Below, one piece after another: positions 25,101 to 49,723 of a stretch of 64,000 nucleotides of DNA. The position numbers and the translations under genes were made by a program. The stretch is from Clavulina sp. PMI_390 (Eukaryota > Basidiomycota > Agaricomycetes > Cantharellales > Hydnaceae), in the NCBI GenBank assembly GCA_015039315.1, contig WIDE01000053.1, positions 94,429 to 158,428 on the forward strand, given 5' to 3'. Numbering within the stretch: the first letter of the stretch is position 1; each line of letters opens with the position of its first letter. The notes below the pieces were generated by a model, which saw nothing but the letters and a program-made list of their open reading frames with translations, was not told where the DNA came from and ran no database searches.

Positions 25101-28100
25101 ATGGCTGAACTGCCGTCTGTGCCTCGCATCCTCGAGCGCGCCCTCTCGCCGCCACTCACTGTGCTCTCTGAGGGTCAGCAGCCATTTGGGCCCTCCTCGC
25201 ATCACTCGCACCACCACCAAAGCCATCATCACACTACCCACCACCATCCACATGCGACACACCACCCCCAATCGCATCATCACTATTCACAGCAGCAGCA
25301 GCAACAACAACAACACCATTCTCACAACCCGCATTCCATTCTCACACATTCCCCTCCTCGTTTGCTCGACGGCGGGCCCCCTCCATCAAAAAAGCGAAAG
25401 AAGACACTAGAGCAGCGTGAGCACGACCTGCAGCTCCCACCCGTCATCGCTCTTGGCCCCGCTACTTCTAGCAACGGTTCAAGTACCGCTTCCACCGTCA
25501 ACTCGGTCAGCAACCTCATCGATATCACCGCGACGCCCTATCCATCCCCGCCTGGAGGTAGCGGGAGTGCTGGTGGTCCCAGTCACGCTGGTTCCCACGG
25601 AGGAGGATCCATGTCCATCTCCATGTCCTCGCCGGACTACTCCTCGTCCTCAGGAAACAACGTCATCGGCATCGCTCCAGGCGGAGTCGGCGTCGGAGGC
25701 AATGGAGGGGGTCCCCCAGGTGCCATCCCCGAACCACGCCGTCTCCGTCGTCTCCACGAAGCGTGCGCCCGGTGTCGGCGCAAAAAGATCAAGTGCGACA
25801 GCATGATGCCCAATTGCGGCGCATGTGCAACCGCCGGCGTCGAGTGCACCCAAGAGGACCGCCATCGCCAGATGCTCAAACCCCGCGCATGGACCGACCA
25901 GCTCGAGACACAGGTCGAAAAGTGTGTTGCGCTGCTCGAGCGGTTGATTGATGGCTTTAGGATCAGCGATGTCGATCATTGGCTCGCCGTGTATGGACCT
26001 GGCTCTGGAGTGGCTGCACGGCCTCCTTCTGGTAGTAGCTCGGCCCCACCACCTCCGCCTGCTACGGCTACAGCAGGTGTCGGCACTCCGACGACGCCTG
26101 GTGCGCCTTACCCCGGTGCTGCCCCTCATCCCCACGAGTATCATCATCCCGACGCGGCGCACTCCCACCCCCAGTATGCCGCAGGAGCAGCACCCACGTC
26201 TGCGTCTTCCTCTTCCTCCACTCGTCCAGGTGCTGGTGGTGCTGGTCCCTCGGGCCCGGGCAATCGCGAGGTCATCGTCAAACTCGAGCCCCCGCCCCCG
26301 CCAACCATCTCCTCGTCCTCCGCCGCAAATGCCTCGATGGCCGCCGCGGACGACAAGGGCCGCGATCCGAACGGGAACGACATGTCGGCGTTTGCGGGTC
26401 TCATTCGAGGATTCGGAGTGGGCAAGGTATATGCGAAGGGCGTTAAGCCTGGTGAGTTGCTCTGGGACTTTGCTTTTTTCGGGTCTCAATCAATTGGCTT
26501 TCTTCACTTGCCTTTTCGCTTGTGAAAGTTTTCTTCCTTCTCGTTTGCTCTCTTTCTCCTTTTTCTCTCTTGATCGCGAGTTGAGTTGGACGCTTTTGGC
26601 TGATCAAGTTGAATCACTTTTCTTTCCTTTCTCTTAATCGCTGATGTGGTGTATGCGCGCCCACACACATCAATCTCCACCATTGCATGCATGACGTGCT
26701 CCGCGGTTATCACATCTAATCGCAATACGTCCACGGTGGCCGCTACATGCTCCCTCGTCCATCTCCTGTGTGCCTGTTGGTTGTGCACTCTGTTTTTCCT
26801 TTGCAGAACCGGCCTTCCGAGAGGATGTCATCGGCGGTATAGGCATGTCTCGTCTCAACGCGTTCTCCAAGCCCCACAACCCAACACACTGGACATCTGT
26901 TGGCCTTCGGCGGGATTCGATACCCATGCCTCCACCCCCACCTCCTCACCTCTCGGCGGCAGCATCCTCTGCCTACTCCAGCACGGGGAACCCCGGGTCT
27001 TCTTCGTCTGCTTCTGGCTCTGGCCGCTTCTCCACCTCTTCCTCGTCGGCCCCCACGCCTGGATCTGGAGCTTCCCCATACACCAACTACTCCGCCGCCC
27101 CTCCGTCCTCCTCTGAATCATCCAACTACAACTTCCTCCTCCCGCGTGATCGCCACCTTGCGCAAAAAGTGCTCGACTGCTACTTTGACAACCTCAATCC
27201 GCACCGACCGGTGTTTATGCGCGATGAGTTTATGGAAAAGGTGCAGGCGCTGTATGATTCGTTGGATGAGGAGCAGCGTGCGGTGAGTGCTGCTGCTGCT
27301 GGTGCAGAGGAGCGGGATCGAGAGGGCCGAAAGCGGGCGATGAGCATCGATTCGCCCGTGGCGCCCATGATGATGAATGGCGGAGAGCATGGGTCTTCGG
27401 TCCCACTTGGTCACTCTGCATCATCGTCTTCTTCGACTGCCACTTCGATGTCTCCGACAACATCCTATTTCCCGCATGGACAACCACAATATGGGCAGCA
27501 GCAGCAACGCCCATCCCACCCGCCCTCGCGCAACTCACAGCCCCAGCTCCCAGTTCATCACCCTACGACGACGAACCCTACTGCTGCGAACCCTGCTAGC
27601 GATGCCGGCTTCCTCTGCTCCGTCTACCTCGTCTTTGCACTGGGCACGATGGCACTGCGGAATCGTCGAGTGCAGCATCAAGATGGCGCACGCGGGAAGA
27701 ACAAGAGCAAGAACAAGGATAAGGGCAAGGAGGACGAAGACGAAGTTGGGCCATACGACGACCCAGCGCTGTTCGCGGCACTCGAGGAGCATTGGCCGAG
27801 CCACGAGGACTTTTACGATCTGGCGCTCGCGCTCAAGACGGATCTGGCAAATAGCATTTCGACGCTGCAGGCGTTGATTCTACTGCATTGGTACTTGTAT
27901 TGCGAGGTGCGTGTTTATTCTATTCTTGCATTTGGAAGGGGGGACTAAGTGTTCTTTTCTCTCATGGCATGGATTCGCGCGCTAATGTCTCTATGCGTCT
28001 CTTCTTCCTTTCTGGGATGCGGTATACAGCGACATGGAAAGGCCCTTTGGCGACTCGTAGGAAATCTGATCCGCCTGGCCATCGAACTCGGGCTGCACCA

Positions 28101-41787: not shown

Positions 41788-43403
41788 TCAATTAGGGACA
41801 TAAATCACCTTGATGCCGAAACTTTCGAGCTGGTCCACAACTTCCTGCGTCTGGCGAGCCTCCACGACGTCGGGTTCTGTCTCAATTTTGCATCCCAGTT
41901 TCTTTCTTTTGCATCGAGTGCAGGGAGCCCCATGTCGGGATGATATATTACAACTTGCCTTGGTAAACAACGAAAGAGTATCTGGGTAAGCTGTTCGATA
42001 AGTCCAAATTATTCGAACCACCAACTTACCCTGTTCAACTTGCACCGGTCGCAACATATTGATATCTTCGGAGTATCTCCTCTTGTTGCTTCCTGCTTCC
42101 CACGCGCGATCCAGTTTGGAGGTTCCAGCAAGCGGTTTGGAAAATGCCAAAACACCTGGTAACGAGCTCTTGGCTCTTCGATGTATACATTCTTCAGAAG
42201 CGGAAGAAGGGAATTAACATTAGAGCCAGTGTTTATCTGAGGAACCGACGGCCATCCCGTTGGTCCTTGCTCAAGGTCCCGAGAAATACGACTGAGTAAT
42301 TTTCCGTACCCAGATGATTGAAAGAAATACAAATTCTCTAAGCCTTGGAAGGCTCCAAGCATGGGGAAACCAGCTTCACAATCTATTTCGTGGCCAGAGA
42401 ATGTCACGCTGTTGGCGGGAATCTCCGAAAGCAGTTGCAGGAGCCTAGATTGTTCAGGATCAACTTCGTTCCTATGAATCACGATTGGACCGAAGGATGG
42501 GGTGGACGTGAAAGTGGCATAACGGAGGGACGGCGTAGAGATGTCATACCAGATGGCGGGATGGTTTGTGACCACACGTTCAACAAGAGGCAAAGACACT
42601 CGTGTTCTACGGGGCGATCCCACAACAAATCCTGCCCTCAAGCTGATACGAAACTCTCTGAGGGAGGGAAGCCCCGCAAGTGTCTCACAGACACGGGGCC
42701 AGAATTGGTTTGCAACACTCAACTCAACCAGACATAAGAGAGGCCATGAGACATTGATGGAACTTGGGAGATATCCAACTGCAGCCGAAAACTTCAAAGT
42801 TCGGAGGGGGGTATATTGCGGTGCGATATCCCAAACAGCCTCCCTATTGGGAGGCTCATCCTGCTGAGATCCGTGAATATCAATTACCAAGTCGTGCAGA
42901 CCTGGAAATTTCGTCGTTTTTAAAAATTTTTGGAGCGCGTACGTGGTTCTAGCTTGTCTGAAATCGACTGATATCGAGCGACACCGCCCCATATGAGGTG
43001 CAAGAAGCCTAGTTACTGTTCGCCAATCATTCTCAACCACTGACTGCTGGTTAAGTGGATCATATGCTGGCAATCTCCACGAGCGCTGGATGACGACGTG
43101 GATTGGAGACCGCTTTGACCGTTGAAGAAAGCAACGCACTCTATCAGTGTCAATTGCGAAGAGCCAGGCATGGTGTCTGGGGGAGTCCCTCAATCGTGGC
43201 ATGGAGTACTCGTATACTTTGAGGTATATATTAGACCAAAAGGGGCCATATTTAACCGCAACGTTGCGCCAACGGGAGGAGACAGACGTGACGATGATGA
43301 GGGAAATGAGGCGTGCGCGTGGTGAATCTCCAGCGAGAGTGAGAAGGTGGTCCATCACAAGCAGCAGCAGCTCGTTGGGCAACATAGATATCATTTTATC
43401 CAT
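41788..43403 (-). CDS. F-box protein with C-terminal Zn2Cys6 cluster, tandem copy D
   Basis: Two exons (43403-42030 and 41958-41788; intron 71 bp) give 514 aa. The N-terminal F-box reads MLPNELLLLVMDHLL, then SVSSRWRNVAVKYGPFWSNI. Next come LRR-like irregular repeats (SWPLLCLVELSVANQFWPRV, then LAGLPSLREFRISL), as in fungal F-box proteins that present substrates to an SCF ubiquitin ligase. After the splice the last 60 residues form CDRCKLNR|ASC, nine residues, CTRCKRKKLGC: a perfect CX2CX6CX9CX2CX6C with the basic residues usual in DNA-binding zinc clusters. A short helix follows (VVEARQTQEVVDQLESFG). The acceptor (ACCAAG) was chosen because it is the one that keeps the frame open and restores the spacing; copies E and F give the same result. 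Function is inferred only. Confidence 0.82.
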
Positions 43404-44071
43404 AGGTAGAAATGGGGCTTTTGGGTAAGATGTCGTTTATCTGAGTACTGTTGCGAAGGACTGGAGCCAGGCGCTGTTCAATGGAGTGGGGTAGTTGGGG
43501 CTATAGCGGCGAACTCAGCATATCGTGGAACAAAACGGCAGGTAGTCTAGTTCAGTATTTTCGCTTACCTCTAGTGTGTTTGAAGTCAAGGGTATCACGA
43601 AGGTGGATAACACGATAGGCGAGCGGCTTCCTGTTGTTTGGGCCGTTTTCTCACGGCGGCTCCCTTGCGGATCTCAGTCTGACCAACAGGCATCATATCA
43701 CCCCGACGTCCTCAGGATCAACAATCATCATTGTCTACACAAATTCTTACCCAAGCGGGGGGATAATGATCCTAAATTTCCGATTGATTTAGCTCCCGAG
43801 GACAACTTGCAAAGAAAATGAGCTCTGTGACTTCAGATTCTCAACACCAGTATCACAGAGGTGCCACCACGCAAGTTGGTATCTCCCAAATTAGGTTCAA
43901 ACGATCGTTTGTATGCGGTAGCGAGTTCCATACATGATTCGCAGGGATAGATACGCGGAAGGCTCGCCCTTGAAATGGTACTACTAAATGTAATGCGGTA
44001 AGAATAGTCTCCCCAGGATCGCACCAATACTTGTGATGAGAGGACGTATCACCCCAGACCATCCACTGACA
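43404..44071. other. Intergenic region between F-box copies D and E
   Basis: 668 bp containing the promoter of copy D and the 3' flank of copy E. The stretch 43850-44000 vaguely resembles 46090-46230, the flank of copy F (GGTGCCACCACG against GGTACCGCCACG), consistent with duplication of whole units. No gene is seen. Confidence 0.45.
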
Positions 44072-45657
44072 TCAACGGAGAGCCCAATTCACCTTGATAT
44101 CTAAACCCTGAAGACGGTTCATAGCCTTTTGCGTGTCTCGAGCCTCCATCACCGCAGTATTTGTCTCGATTTTGCAATCTAGACTTTTATCGTCGCACCG
44201 AGTGCAGCTACACCCCTGTTTAAGGAGAAGATTGCAGCGGGTCTTTGAGATAAAGTGAGCGTCCACTTTTGCTTGTTACCCAGCAAAGGCCTTCGTCGTC
44301 CACGTACCTTGTCCACCTTGCACTGATCACAGCCTTTGAGTGTCTTCCAAGTGCCTTCCGTTTTTGGTTTCTGCTCTTGGCGAACAACCCAGTTTGGAGG
44401 TTCTGACAAGCGATTTGGAAACTCCCAAAACATCCAATATAGCCCCTTTGCCTCCTCAATCGACACAGTGTGTAGGAGCGGAAGGAACAAGTTGACGTTG
44501 ACGTCACTGTTCGTGTGCTCGCCCAATTGCCTCTCCGTTGATCCCCGCTCTAGAACTTGTGAGATACGATCGAGTAATTTCCCATGCTTGGACGATTGAT
44601 GGAAGTGCAAATTCTCGACATGATCCAAAGCTTGAAGCATTGGGAAAATGAATTCCCTGTCCATCGCGGTGCCCAAGAATGTGACATCATGAATGGGCAT
44701 CTCCGCGAGTAGTTGCAGAAGTTTGGCCTGCATGGGGTCGAATTCCTGAGCATGAATTCTGGGGTGAAATGGGATAGCCGTGAAAGCGGCGTAGCGGAGG
44801 AATGGTGTAGAGATGTCATACCAAATAGCGGAATTATTTGTAGTGACACGCTCGACAAGGGGTAGGGAGATTCGCGTTGTGCGGGGTGGATCTTCAATCA
44901 GCCCAGCTCCCAAACTAATACGAAACTCCTTGAGAGAAGGAAGGTTTGCGAGTGTCTCGCAAACACGAGGCCAGAAATGGGTTGCGATCTTCAGCTCAAT
45001 GAGAGATAGGAGAGGCCATGAAACGTCGATAGCTCTTGGGATATATCTCCATGTGTCCGAGAATTTTAGAGTTCGTAGGGGTGTGAATTCTGGTGAAATA
45101 TTCCACATAGTATCCCAATTATGGTACTTATCCTCCTTGGTATCACGAAAATCAATCACCAAGTCCTCTAGAACTGAGAATTTCCTAGTGTTTGAAAACT
45201 TGTGAATCTCGGACGAGGCCCTGGCTCCTTTGAAATGTATAGACATCGAGCGACATCGGTCCATATGAGGCGCAATGAGTTTCTCCATGAGCCCCCAGTT
45301 TTCCTCTGCTGCCGTTCGCTTGATCGTGGGATATAAATTCAGGTCTTTCCATGATAAAAAGACGAAGAGGCGGATAGGAGAGCGTTTTGATCGGTCGAGA
45401 AAGCAACGTACTCTGTCAAAGTCGTTTGCAAGAATCTGGGTAAGGCGGGTCTGACGCCATGGGATGGGGGTCTCGTAGGGTTTGACGTATATGTTAGCCC
45501 AGAAGGAGCTACATCCATTAGCAATATTCCGCCAACGCGAGGAGATAGATGTGGCGGTGATGAGGGAAGTGATGAATGCTCGTGGCGAGTCTTCAGCGAG
45601 GAGGAGGAGGTGCTCTATCACAAGCAATACCAGCTCGCTTGGAAGTGCGGATATCAT
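44072..45657 (-). CDS. F-box protein with C-terminal Zn2Cys6 cluster, tandem copy E
   Basis: Exons 45657-44308 and 44242-44072 (intron 65 bp) give 506 aa. F-box: MISALPSELVLLVIEHLLLL, then SISSRWRNIANGCSSFWANI. LRR-like strands follow (SWPLLSLIELKIATHFWPRV, LANLPSLKEFRISLGAGL). Exon 2 is again exactly 171 nt. Using the acceptor CTCAAAG, the junction is CDQCKVDK|TRC, then nine residues, then CTRCDDKSLDC, so CX2CX6CX9CX2CX6C is restored. The nine-residue loop has one extra Cys (LLLKQGCS). The second half of the cluster is acidic/neutral (DDKSLD) instead of basic. A later acceptor (AAACAG) is also in frame but would remove the third Cys. Confidence 0.82.
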
Positions 45658-46298
45658 TCTGTGTGTATCTGGGAAGAAGGATAACGAGGAGGAGACCGTA
45701 TACTCGAGTGGCTTAGCAAAAATCTCTGCAGTTGGACAATGTTTGGTAAGACCACGAAGGTGAGAGCTGGGGCTATGGACGAAGCAAAATAGTGCTTGAG
45801 CACAAAATCAAGCCATTTCAGGGCTTTTGGCTCACCTAGAGTTTACTTGACACCACAGATACTGTCAAGGAACATTAGATGGCCTGTATGAGTGACCCGA
45901 CCATATTCCCACGATTCCCTTCGCATCTGCCTGTGAACTACACTATCGCAGTCACTGGATCGTCAAACTCGACCTCCATCGATCTTGACCATCTTCGTCG
46001 GGGGTAGGAGATCGAGCATCATTCTTGCAGTGCTTCTCATTACTCACACGCTAAAGTCCCGAAAGGTTACCACTCGAAGATTAGCATGTTTGCAACCCCA
46101 CCACCATTGCGTGGTGGTACCGCCACGAATGTGAATTTCCACCAAATCACGTCAAAGTTACCAGACATGCGGCTCGCAGACGTCAATACGAGGAAGATTC
46201 GCCCCTCGCCCCGCTACTATGTCAGATTCATTCGACCTCTATCTTGCCCGCACAGGCTCGTAGTAACAGCATATAATGCCCAGTGGCATCGATCGGTA
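45658..46298. other. Intergenic region between F-box copies E and F
   Basis: 641 bp with the promoter of copy E and the 3' flank of copy F. No gene, RNA or clear repeat is seen beyond the weak similarity to 43850-44000. Confidence 0.45.
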
Positions 46299-47862
46299 TC
46301 AAATGAGAACCCAAGTCACCTCTATACCTAAACCCTGGAGGCGGTCCACAGCTTTCTGTATCTCGCGAGCCTCCACGACAGCAGCATTTGCCTCAATTCT
46401 ACATTCTGAACCCTCGTCTGTGCAACGAGTGCAACTACTCCCCTTCCTAAACAGAATATCGCAGGGGATCTCGAGAAATGGTAAAAATTCGGTTAGGCTT
46501 CGACATAAGTCGATTAATCAATCGTCAACATACTCCGTATACAAGGCACTGATCGCAAGCCTTAAGTAATTTCGAGAATCCTTCCACTGCTGATAATGGG
46601 TCTTGACGAACGCACCAGAGAGGCGCTTCTAGCAAGCGGCTCGGAAACTCCCAAAACATCCAGTAGCGAGTTTGCCAATCCTCAATGAATACACCACTCA
46701 GAAATGGCAGAAAGGAGTTGTCACGGAAGCCAGTATTCATTTGAGCACCCAATGGTCTTTCCGACACTTCCTTTTCGAGTGCCCGAGCAACACGGCTGAG
46801 CAGCTGTCCGTGGTCGTACGATCGATAGAAGTGAATATTTTCAAGACGTTTGAAGGCTTGGATTATCGAGAAGATAATGTTAGAGTCTATCACGAAGCCA
46901 GAGAACGTAACGTCACAGACGGGCATCTCCTCCAACTGCTCCGCTAGAGTTGCGGAAAGCCGGCCGTGCAATGGCATGGCCGTAAAAGAGACGTAACGAA
47001 TAGATGGTGTGGAGATATCACCCCAAATGACAGGGTGATTGGTGACGACATGTTCAACAAGAGGCAGCAAAATCCGTGTTTGGCAGGGTGGAACCGGATT
47101 TGATCCTCCCCCCAGGTTAATGCGAAGCTCTTTGAGAGTAGGAAGCTTTGCGAGCGTCTCGCGGACACGAGGCCAGAGCCGCCCGGCGACATTTAACTCA
47201 ATGAGGGATAGGAGAGGCCATGAAACATCAATAGCTTCTGGAATATAGCTATTTGCATCTGAGAATCTCAGAGTCCGAAGGGGGGTGTATAGTGGTGAAA
47301 TATTCCATGTAGCATCCCAGGGAAGGGGCTGTTCCTGCTGAAGGGCAGAAAAACTCAACACCAGATCCTGCAAGAGAAGGAATTTCACTCCACCGAGCAA
47401 GTCAAAAAGCTCATAGGAAGCCCCAGTTCCTTGGAAACGGACGGATATCGAACGACATCGCCCCATGTGAGGTGCAAGCAGGTTCTTCATAAGTCCCCAT
47501 TCTTTCTCAAGCACCGACTGCTCGTCCGCAGGCATCAGATTGAGGCCTCTCCACGAGCGGGGGATAAAAAGGTAGATTGGGGACTGTTTCGAACGTTCGA
47601 GAAAGCAACGCACTCTGTCTACATCACTTGCCAGGAGACGGGTAGGGCGTTGGGGGTGATCCCATTGCCATGCTGGAGTCTCGTGGAGTTTGACAGATAT
47701 ATAGGCCCAAAAGGGGCTGTATTGTATGGCGGTGGTGCGCCAGTAGGAGCAGATAGATGTGATAGTAATGAGGGCTGTAAGAGATTTACGGGGTAAATCT
47801 CGAGCGGGGAGCAGGTCCTGCATCACGAGCAGGAGGAGCTCACTTGGGAGCACATGGGCCAT
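46299..47862 (-). CDS. F-box protein with C-terminal Zn2Cys6 cluster, tandem copy F
   Basis: Exons 47862-46534 and 46469-46299 (intron 64 bp) give 499 aa from the ATG at 47862, which matches the start of copies D and E (MAHVLPSELLLLVMQDLL). The frame is open upstream to an ATG at 48018, but that stretch has no counterpart in D or E. LRR-like blocks: SWPLLSLIELNVAGRLWPRV and LAKLPTLKELRINLGGGS. With the acceptor CTCGAG the end reads CDQCLVYG|IPC, nine residues (DILFRKGSS), CTRCTDEGSEC: the same CX2CX6CX9CX2CX6C, now acidic in its second half. The helix after it (VVEAREIQKAVDRLQGLG) is conserved with E. Exon 2 is 171 nt as in D and E. Confidence 0.82.
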
Positions 47863-48162: not shown

Positions 48163-49723
48163 ATGGCCACATTGAAACCGATTCCTATCACCGTCTTCAC
48201 AGGCTTCCTCGGAAGTGGAAAAACTAGCATTATACTTTCACTGCTTCCCCAGCTCCCGTCAGACTACAAGGTCGTCCTGCTGAAAAATGAGTTTGGCGAC
48301 GTCGAAGGTGCATTATCATCATCATCATCGACATGACATAGTGGTGCCGCATCGCATGTGAATGTCTGCCAACCCACTGTGATGTACCATCGTAATCTGA
48401 CTTAAGAATCTGATATTCGTCTTGGTTTTGTTCTGGTCTGCCATGCCACGTCCGATCCATCATTGCAACGCGCACAGTGGATAGTCAGCTTGCAAAGCAA
48501 TCAAGTCTTGCTGCCGTGAGCGAGATTTTGAATGGTTGCATGTGAGTACATCCACGGTTGTTCTCTGGATGCATTCTGAATGACTCTTTTTTCTGATTGT
48601 TAAGGTGCTGCGTGCTCGTCGGTCAGATGAAGACAGCTATTCTGGAGATTCGAGGTCAGTAGTCCGAAAATGCGCCAGGTTGTCCGGAGAGATATTGAGT
48701 CGATTATCTCTGCTCCGCTATGCCATATAGAGAAATTCAGGCCAGACCGCATCATCATCGAGTCCTCGTGCGTCTCACCCCAGTTTTGCCTTCAGTTCTC
48801 TAGCACTGGCTGATATCCGAAACGACGCTAGAGGATCGGCCTTCCCAGCGACCCTTGCATTTCAGATCCGCGAACTCGAGCGCGAGACCACCGGCGATCT
48901 CAAGCTCGATGCGATCGTCACTGTCATCGATGCAGAGAACTTCGTTGGGTACGAGGATACGAGCACTACTGCCAAGATGCAGGCGCAATACTCAGATATC
49001 TTGCTAATCGTGCGTATAATTCATTCGACTATGGAAGACCTGTTTCTGGCATTTACTATCTCGTTGATATTGGGATTCATCATAGAACAAATGGGAGCAC
49101 GTACGCTATTTTCGTATCTATTTCCCTTCGGTGATTTATTGACGTCTGCTGTTTTATCCTAGGTATCAATGCGCCAGCTGGACATAGTGATGGATCACCT
49201 CTTCACGCTCAACGAGCTCACTCCTAAGATCAAGTGCATTGGGAGGAATGGGGTTGACCCCTCCCTGCTCTTCGGAATTGACTCGAAGCTCTTCCAGTCC
49301 CCGGACGACCATTCGACACATGGTACGGGCGACAGTGATCACCACCACCATCACCAGGAGGACGGTTCGCAGCACGATGAAGTCGAAGTAGCGACGATTC
49401 TCGCTAGGGAAGACTCGCCATCATCCTCTGCTACGATTACAAGAGATGCTCTTGACAAAGCGCTTGCTACACTACCAAAGGATGTCATCTATCGCGTCAA
49501 AGGTTACGTTCCTCTTGCTCCGTCAACCGCGTCCACCCCTATGAGTTCACCAGAGGTTGTCATTCTCAATTGGGCGTTTGGGCGAATCGAGATTACTCCA
49601 CACGTGTCAGCATCACAAGATAGTCCAAGCCAGCTTAGACTATCGGTCATGGGTGAGAGGGGAGAGGTGAAGCGGAAGTGGGCCGTGAGGCTTGCTGATG
49701 CTCTGGGTGGAGTGGTGGTGTAA
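48163..49723 (+). CDS. CobW/COG0523 GTP-binding metal chaperone (ZNG1-like)
   Basis: Seven exons (48163-48307, 48478-48541, 48605-48654, 48731-48767, 48832-49009, 49086-49100, 49163-49723) give 349 aa. G domain: Walker A GFLGSGKTSI, switch block NEFGDVEVDSQL, the metal-binding GCMCC motif (restored across an intron), IIIESSGSAFPATLA, and LLINKWEHV as the guanine-specificity loop. Exon 6 is only 15 nt and encodes NKWEH. A His/Asp-rich loop (DHHHHHQED) lies between the two domains; the CobW C-terminal domain starts about residue 265 (VIYRVKGYVPL, WAFGRIEIT). Related proteins hand zinc to client enzymes in a GTP-dependent way. The ATG at 48163 is preferred to 48091 because the extra 24 residues have no family match. 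Confidence 0.92.

Follow-up and report, generated by a model that had tools for sequence, protein, structure and literature searches.

This report describes the apparent capture of a fungal DNA-binding domain by a family of F-box proteins in the basidiomycete Clavulina sp. PMI_390. We studied a stretch of 64,000 nucleotides (the window) from contig WIDE01000053.1 (positions 94,429 to 158,428, forward strand). Three genes in the window, D (43403-41788), E (45657-44072), and F (47862-46299), all on the minus strand, encode proteins with an F-box-like region, a leucine-rich repeat (LRR) solenoid, and a relative of the Zn2Cys6 binuclear zinc cluster, inserted before the last LRR-like unit. Judged from sequences and structural models, the three are probably FBXL-type substrate receptors of Skp1-Cul1-F-box (SCF) ubiquitin ligases, and they belong to a clade of 11 such receptors in Clavulina. 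We tentatively suggest that the captured cluster could well serve these receptors as a metal-braced knob for protein recognition. A DNA-binding domain seems to have moved into a ubiquitin-ligase receptor, apparently in one event that left 11 surviving copies, and the likely donor class can be named from a shared intron position and the best sequence matches. The first-pass annotation of this DNA knew of no description of such an architecture; in agreement with this, we recognized no F-box protein with a Zn2Cys6 cluster among the matches listed in the open-licence literature.

Genes D, E, and F share one structure, namely a long first exon, a single short phase-0 GT..AG intron, and a last exon of 171 nt (Table 1). 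The spliced products have 514, 506, and 499 residues, respectively, and each contains one CX2CX6CX9CX2CX6C motif, at residues 451-481 (D), 443-473 (E), and 436-466 (F). This is the spacing that the first-pass annotation had claimed; it is exact in all three genes and recurs in paralogs. In the 39.4-Mb assembly (301 contigs), exon 1 of gene E gave 66 matches, which form one F-box/LRR family, and the exon-2 query found the cluster-bearing last exon 11 times. One further match to the exon-2 query, a Zn_clus locus on contig C280, lies outside the F-box/LRR family. The exact motif is present in 10 of the 11 paralogs, including D, E, and F; in L012, an X6 is replaced by X8. Chance cysteines are ruled out as the source of the motif, since it appeared in none of 55,000 composition-preserving shuffles of the 11 paralogs and since both the cluster and its intron recur in all 11.

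Zn2Cys6 domains follow the rule CX2CX6CX5-12CX2CX6-8C, and the spacing in Leu3 is the same as that in the F-box clusters. The gathering cut-off of the Zn_clus profile PF00172 (21 bits) was exceeded by four of the 11 paralogs (L013, L014, L018, and L019), whereas D (12.2 bits), E (15.8 bits), and F (12.1 bits) fell below it; the profile check proposed in the first-pass annotation thus gave scores above the cut-off for some members of the family but not for the three genes themselves. A joint profile of the 11 clusters, compared with solved structures, found Leu3 (7.7e-6), Gal4 (0.0022), LAC9, and AlcR. One deposited paralog alone, P0001, gave weak zinc-cluster matches (best E, 0.054), and an NCBIfam search gave no match. 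In AlphaFold models, two short helices start one residue after cysteines 1 and 4. On its sequence, therefore, the cluster is a relative of Zn2Cys6 domains, and the earlier link to the fungal domain holds through the spacing, the four profile scores, the joint profile, and the intron position described below. By this relationship, the cluster may hold two zinc ions.

The host protein was examined with AlphaFold models of two deposited paralogs, P0001 (predicted local distance difference test (pLDDT) score of 67) and P0006 (pLDDT 74). Both are LRR-type helix/strand solenoids in which a last helix and strand follow the cluster helices. The confidence in the cluster is middling and falls below 50 in about 20 residues before it, and its orientation is not fixed by the models. 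FBXL17-SKP1 and FBXL2-SKP1 ranked with the best structural matches and aligned along almost the entire chain; in the case of P0001, LRR proteins lacking an F-box matched equally well. The alignments with FBXL17 (6wcq and 6w66) and FBXL2 start at model residue 2-3 (P0001) or 8-9 (P0006). The F-box-like scores of D, E, and F are below the cut-off (24.3 bits), and those of some relatives are above it (for example, C191:27227 at 40.2 bits). The receptor assignment in the first-pass annotation is supported by the solenoid and its matches.

The same annotation had these proteins end in the cluster, as a C-terminal fusion. The cluster is real, but in D, E, and F it is followed by 33 residues, which correspond to the helix and strand at the end of cluster-less relatives (for example, VVSRLRAVSIDVTWTL in P0005). 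Because the cluster-less relatives share this terminal unit, the extra residues sit in a loop before the last LRR unit, and a plain C-terminal fusion is ruled out. No linker with a dimerization coiled coil and no fungal regulatory domain follows the cluster, the tail aligning with the last LRR unit instead. No further Pfam domain exceeded its cut-off (for seven of the 11 paralogs, the scan covered the C-terminal piece alone).

A tree was built from 28 of the 66 family matches (30 were fetched). Read without a root, it places all 11 cluster-bearing proteins on one side of a branch and 17 cluster-less proteins on the other (support, 100/99). Two cluster-less paralogs with internal stops, L029 and L033, were excluded from the tree. 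The tree and the exon-2 query together fit a single capture followed by expansion, as in the nematode F-box A2 proteins described below. Many independent gains of the cluster are ruled out by the single branch.

We then compared the introns. Of 39 other zinc-cluster loci, which probably encode transcription factors and were selected non-randomly from 82 + 24 matches, 38 were resolved (L003 was unresolved). In 18, the intron lies after cluster residue 9 in phase 0 (9/0), and in eight, after residue 8 in phase 0 (8/0); of the remaining 12, six have no intron and six have one elsewhere. The intron of the F-box clusters is after residue 8 in phase 0 in 11 of 11. All eight loci of the 8/0 class have CDxCRRKKIRCD-like clusters, and the top six matches to a hidden Markov model of the F-box clusters all belong to this class, the C280 gene ranking first. 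Since both the intron position and the best similarity match this subclass, a genomic piece was probably captured together with its intron, and we suggest that the source was a transcription factor of the CDxCRRKKIRCD subclass. A donor from the common class fits less well, as the intron of that class (18 of 38) lies one codon farther along. Some points weigh against the proposed donor. Among the 38, the other two 8/0 loci, L072 and L090, ranked only 9th and 32nd, behind two 9/0 clusters in 7th and 8th place. Moreover, the script slightly upweighted splice candidates with basic residues, among them the first-loop lysine considered below, and could have biased both the intron classes and the lysine count, although most loci had a single splice candidate.

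The six cysteines, one aspartate, and one glycine of the cluster are invariant in all 11 paralogs, and the cysteine codons show zero amino-acid changes. The mean identity is 29% for the non-cysteine residues of the cluster, 31% for the linker before it, 46% for the tail, and 45% outside the cluster. The pooled ratio of nonsynonymous to synonymous differences (pN/pS) is highest in the non-cysteine cluster codons (0.64), followed by those of the linker (0.59), the tail (0.51), and the F-box plus LRR (0.50), with pS near saturation and no elevated cluster ratio in the closest pair, L016/L018. In Gal4, a lysine of the first loop contacts DNA. As a group, the F-box clusters do not keep a basic first loop with this lysine: it is present in two of 11 (E and L019) versus 36 of 38 clusters of likely transcription factors, a comparison whose Fisher value is descriptive, the F-box paralogs not being independent. 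Lysine or arginine occupies the position in five of 11 versus all 38, and the mean loop charge is 2.18 versus 4.11. The F-box clusters are thus like Gal4/Leu3-type factors in spacing (identical to Leu3), profile homology, and the intron of the CDxCRRKKIRCD subclass, but they lie in an F-box/LRR protein, have no linker or dimerization helix, and have mostly lost the lysine.

From these observations, we propose the following course. One ancestor would have captured the Zn2Cys6 domain of a CDxCRRKKIRCD-subclass transcription factor, probably on a stretch of genomic DNA that included the intron, and the piece would have settled in the loop leading into the final helix-strand unit of the LRR region, at the end of the solenoid farthest from the F-box. 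The module may bind two zincs and form a protein-recognition surface braced by metal; with loops that vary from one paralog to the next, each receptor would grip its own partner. Most members would no longer read DNA, and the captured protein would be ubiquitinated via Skp1-Cul1 bound to the N-terminal F-box. We favor recognition because the ligands are frozen, the surface is variable, the lysine is lost, and the place is distal to the F-box. The motif, the shared intron position, the single branch, the frozen cysteines, and the variability of the other residues are seen directly in the sequences.

Known receptors offer comparisons for such a place. FBXL17, FBXL2, and FBXL5 likewise have an N-terminal F-box followed by an LRR solenoid. 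FBXL5 uses an iron-sulphur cluster, and to our knowledge none of the three has a binuclear zinc cluster. FBXL5 is reported to capture IRP2 at the distal end of the LRRs (PMC7729025). Captured domains have been reported in other F-box families. In PMC12062965, the Caenorhabditis A2 proteins are traced to an F-box gene that captured a DNA-binding domain once and then expanded, and those with the captured helix-turn-helix (HTH) domain tended to bind more proteins through it, so that the domain may serve protein contacts. That HTH domain came from a Tc1/mariner transposase and is N-terminal, with an FTH domain, whereas the insertion described here is a transcription-factor-like zinc cluster close to the C-terminal end of an LRR protein. 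The same report describes fish F-box proteins that also gained a cysteine-rich, zinc-chelating domain (CxC7), but with an unrelated cysteine pattern and a KDZ transposon as the donor (PMC12062965). The parallel between the unrelated nematode and Clavulina events would suggest that large F-box families repeatedly recruit DNA-binding folds as protein-binding parts.

The nearest rival of the recognition knob is a structural staple or a loosely constrained insert, in which the cluster only stabilizes the C-terminal end of the solenoid and recognition falls to the LRR face. Invariant cysteines among residues that vary like the linker would be expected of such a staple, as would a cluster adjoining the last unit and the unelevated ratio in L016/L018. 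The fetched cluster-less paralogs, however, keep the same last unit without any cluster, and we consider this explanation possible but rather unlikely. Slightly less probable still, in our estimate, is that the retired zinc cluster acts as an integrated bait, which would mimic the source factor and capture its partners, inhibitors, or sister factors for degradation, with the metal state as a possible switch. The first-pass annotation had raised a related proposal, that partner zinc-cluster factors are bound for degradation, which may hold. If true, the bait would be a new way to build the substrate specificity of an SCF ligase.

A DNA-tethered SCF ligase, in which the cluster still binds DNA and brings the ligase to promoters, was the other proposal of the first-pass annotation, and we find it doubtful. 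It draws on the Zn2Cys6 ancestry, on some basic members (loop charge of +5 in L013 and cluster charge of +8 in D), and on a basic residue kept at loop position 1 in 10 of 11 paralogs. KDM2A and KDM2B (FBXL11 and FBXL10) give a precedent, being F-box/LRR proteins with a DNA-binding zinc finger, although they carry a different finger (CXXC) and a JmjC domain. The proposal is weakened by the lost lysine, the lower loop charge, and the tail, which aligns with an LRR unit and not with a coiled coil and its linker. For the nematode proteins, mobility-shift assays gave no sign of binding to the DNA sequences tried (PMC12062965). The yeast CBF3 complex unites Ctf13 (an F-box/LRR protein), Skp1, and Cep3 (with a Gal4-type Zn2Cys6 cluster) in one assembly, and Ctf13 with Skp1 stabilizes a Gal4-type domain; there they are separate proteins, bound to DNA at centromeres, and Cep3 and Cul1 share one Skp1 interface (PMC5771398). 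Ctf13 was absent among the structural matches listed for either of our models, which excludes nothing. We know of no F-box or LRR in PacX. PMC4832277 describes PacX and Ume6 as having the Zn2Cys6 cluster towards the C-terminus; they share a cluster that is not N-terminal, but they are transcription factors, and PacX has an N-terminal coiled coil.

It is improbable that the cluster is a metal or redox switch, with zinc occupancy or thiol oxidation gating substrate binding. The iron-sulphur cluster of FBXL5, which reportedly gates IRP2 binding, would be a precedent, and the gene upstream of F encodes a CobW-type GTPase, of a class (CobW/COG0523) that includes some zinc chaperones. Zn2Cys6 clusters are, however, usually structural, and one window gives no evidence that the CobW-type neighbor is linked in function. 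If metal-dependent, the Clavulina receptors would be a fungal counterpart to FBXL5.

None of the deposited models that the protein searches returned belongs to D, E, or F themselves, but six models of paralogs bear on the splicing. Three of the six (P0001, P0002, and P0006) are identical to our predicted spliced proteins L014, L016, and L017. P0003 and P0004 read into the cluster intron and stop, and P0007 retains the intron in frame (matched by reading to L013, L018, and L015, respectively); these three lose or break the zinc cluster through a missed or retained intron and are likely annotation errors. Looser splice pairs with other spacings are possible in D, E, F, L015, and L019, with donors or acceptors that are poorer by eye. 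From the models that stop in the intron or retain it, one might hold that the last exon is a relic, unexpressed or not spliced as drawn, and that the proteins end in the intron, but this is very improbable, given an open exon 2 with splice sites and six cysteines kept in 11 of 11 paralogs at about 45% protein identity, the pooled pN/pS of 0.51 in the tail codons, the last LRR unit that the tail completes, and the three models spliced as predicted.

Table 1. Features of genes D, E, and F in the window
Feature	Position	Strand	Remarks
Gene D exon 1	42030..43403	-	F-box, LRR region, cluster residues 1-8 (CDRCKLNR)
Gene D intron	41959..42029	-	71 nt, phase 0, GTAAGT...AAG, between X6 positions 4 and 5
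Gene D exon 2	41788..41958	-	Remaining cluster, last LRR-like unit, stop
Gene D zinc cluster, exon 1 portion	42030..42053	-	Residues 451-458; arithmetic from exon ends
Gene D zinc cluster, exon 2 portion	41890..41958	-	Residues 459-481; arithmetic from exon ends
Gene D tail	41791..41889	-	Terminal helix and strand; matches C-terminus of cluster-less paralogs
Gene D F-box-like match	43221..43388	-	20.2 bits (cut-off 24.3)
Gene E exon 1	44308..45657	-	F-box, LRR region, CDQCKVDK
Gene E intron	44243..44307	-	65 nt, phase 0
Gene E exon 2	44072..44242	-	Remaining cluster 44242-44174, tail 44173-44075, stop
Gene E F-box-like match	45484..45654	-	20.3 bits (cut-off 24.3)
Gene F exon 1	46534..47862	-	F-box, LRR region, CDQCLVYG
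Gene F intron	46470..46533	-	64 nt, phase 0
Gene F exon 2	46299..46469	-	Remaining cluster 46469-46401, tail 46400-46302, stop
Gene F F-box-like match	47707..47853	-	14.8 bits (cut-off 24.3)

In searches for similar proteins beyond this family, no protein from outside Clavulina was found in the protein searches, and all those returned were from Clavulina sp. PMI_390; two of these searches scored just the 7999 candidates with the most words in common, and the final search missed P0002 and P0005 although they were in its own query. Because of this limited sensitivity, absence in other species is not shown. Within the genome, no neighboring pairs that would indicate other F-box genes with a zinc cluster were seen by eye among the 82 Zn_clus and 150 F-box matches listed, a comparison that is nearly blind, as the 11 known F-box clusters are themselves missing from the Zn_clus matches listed because the intron splits them.

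The F-box repertoire of this genome is very large: all 150 that were scored of 878 candidates exceed the F-box-like Pfam cut-off. A large array of F-box/LRR paralogs lies at C211:196000-368000; those fetched are mostly cluster-less, and some (L029 and L033) have internal stops, which suggests birth-and-death evolution in the array. The pieces of the CobW/COG0523-type GTPase gene, with a His-rich stretch, are at 48163-49721 of the window on the plus strand; two exceed the PF02492 cut-off, and its start lies roughly 300 bp from that of gene F, the two genes being divergent. The best Zn_clus candidate of the 150 scored (E 3.7e-10) is also in the window, at 25764-25847 on the plus strand, and has an uninterrupted cluster (CARCRRKKIKC...) in an open frame of 481 amino acids.

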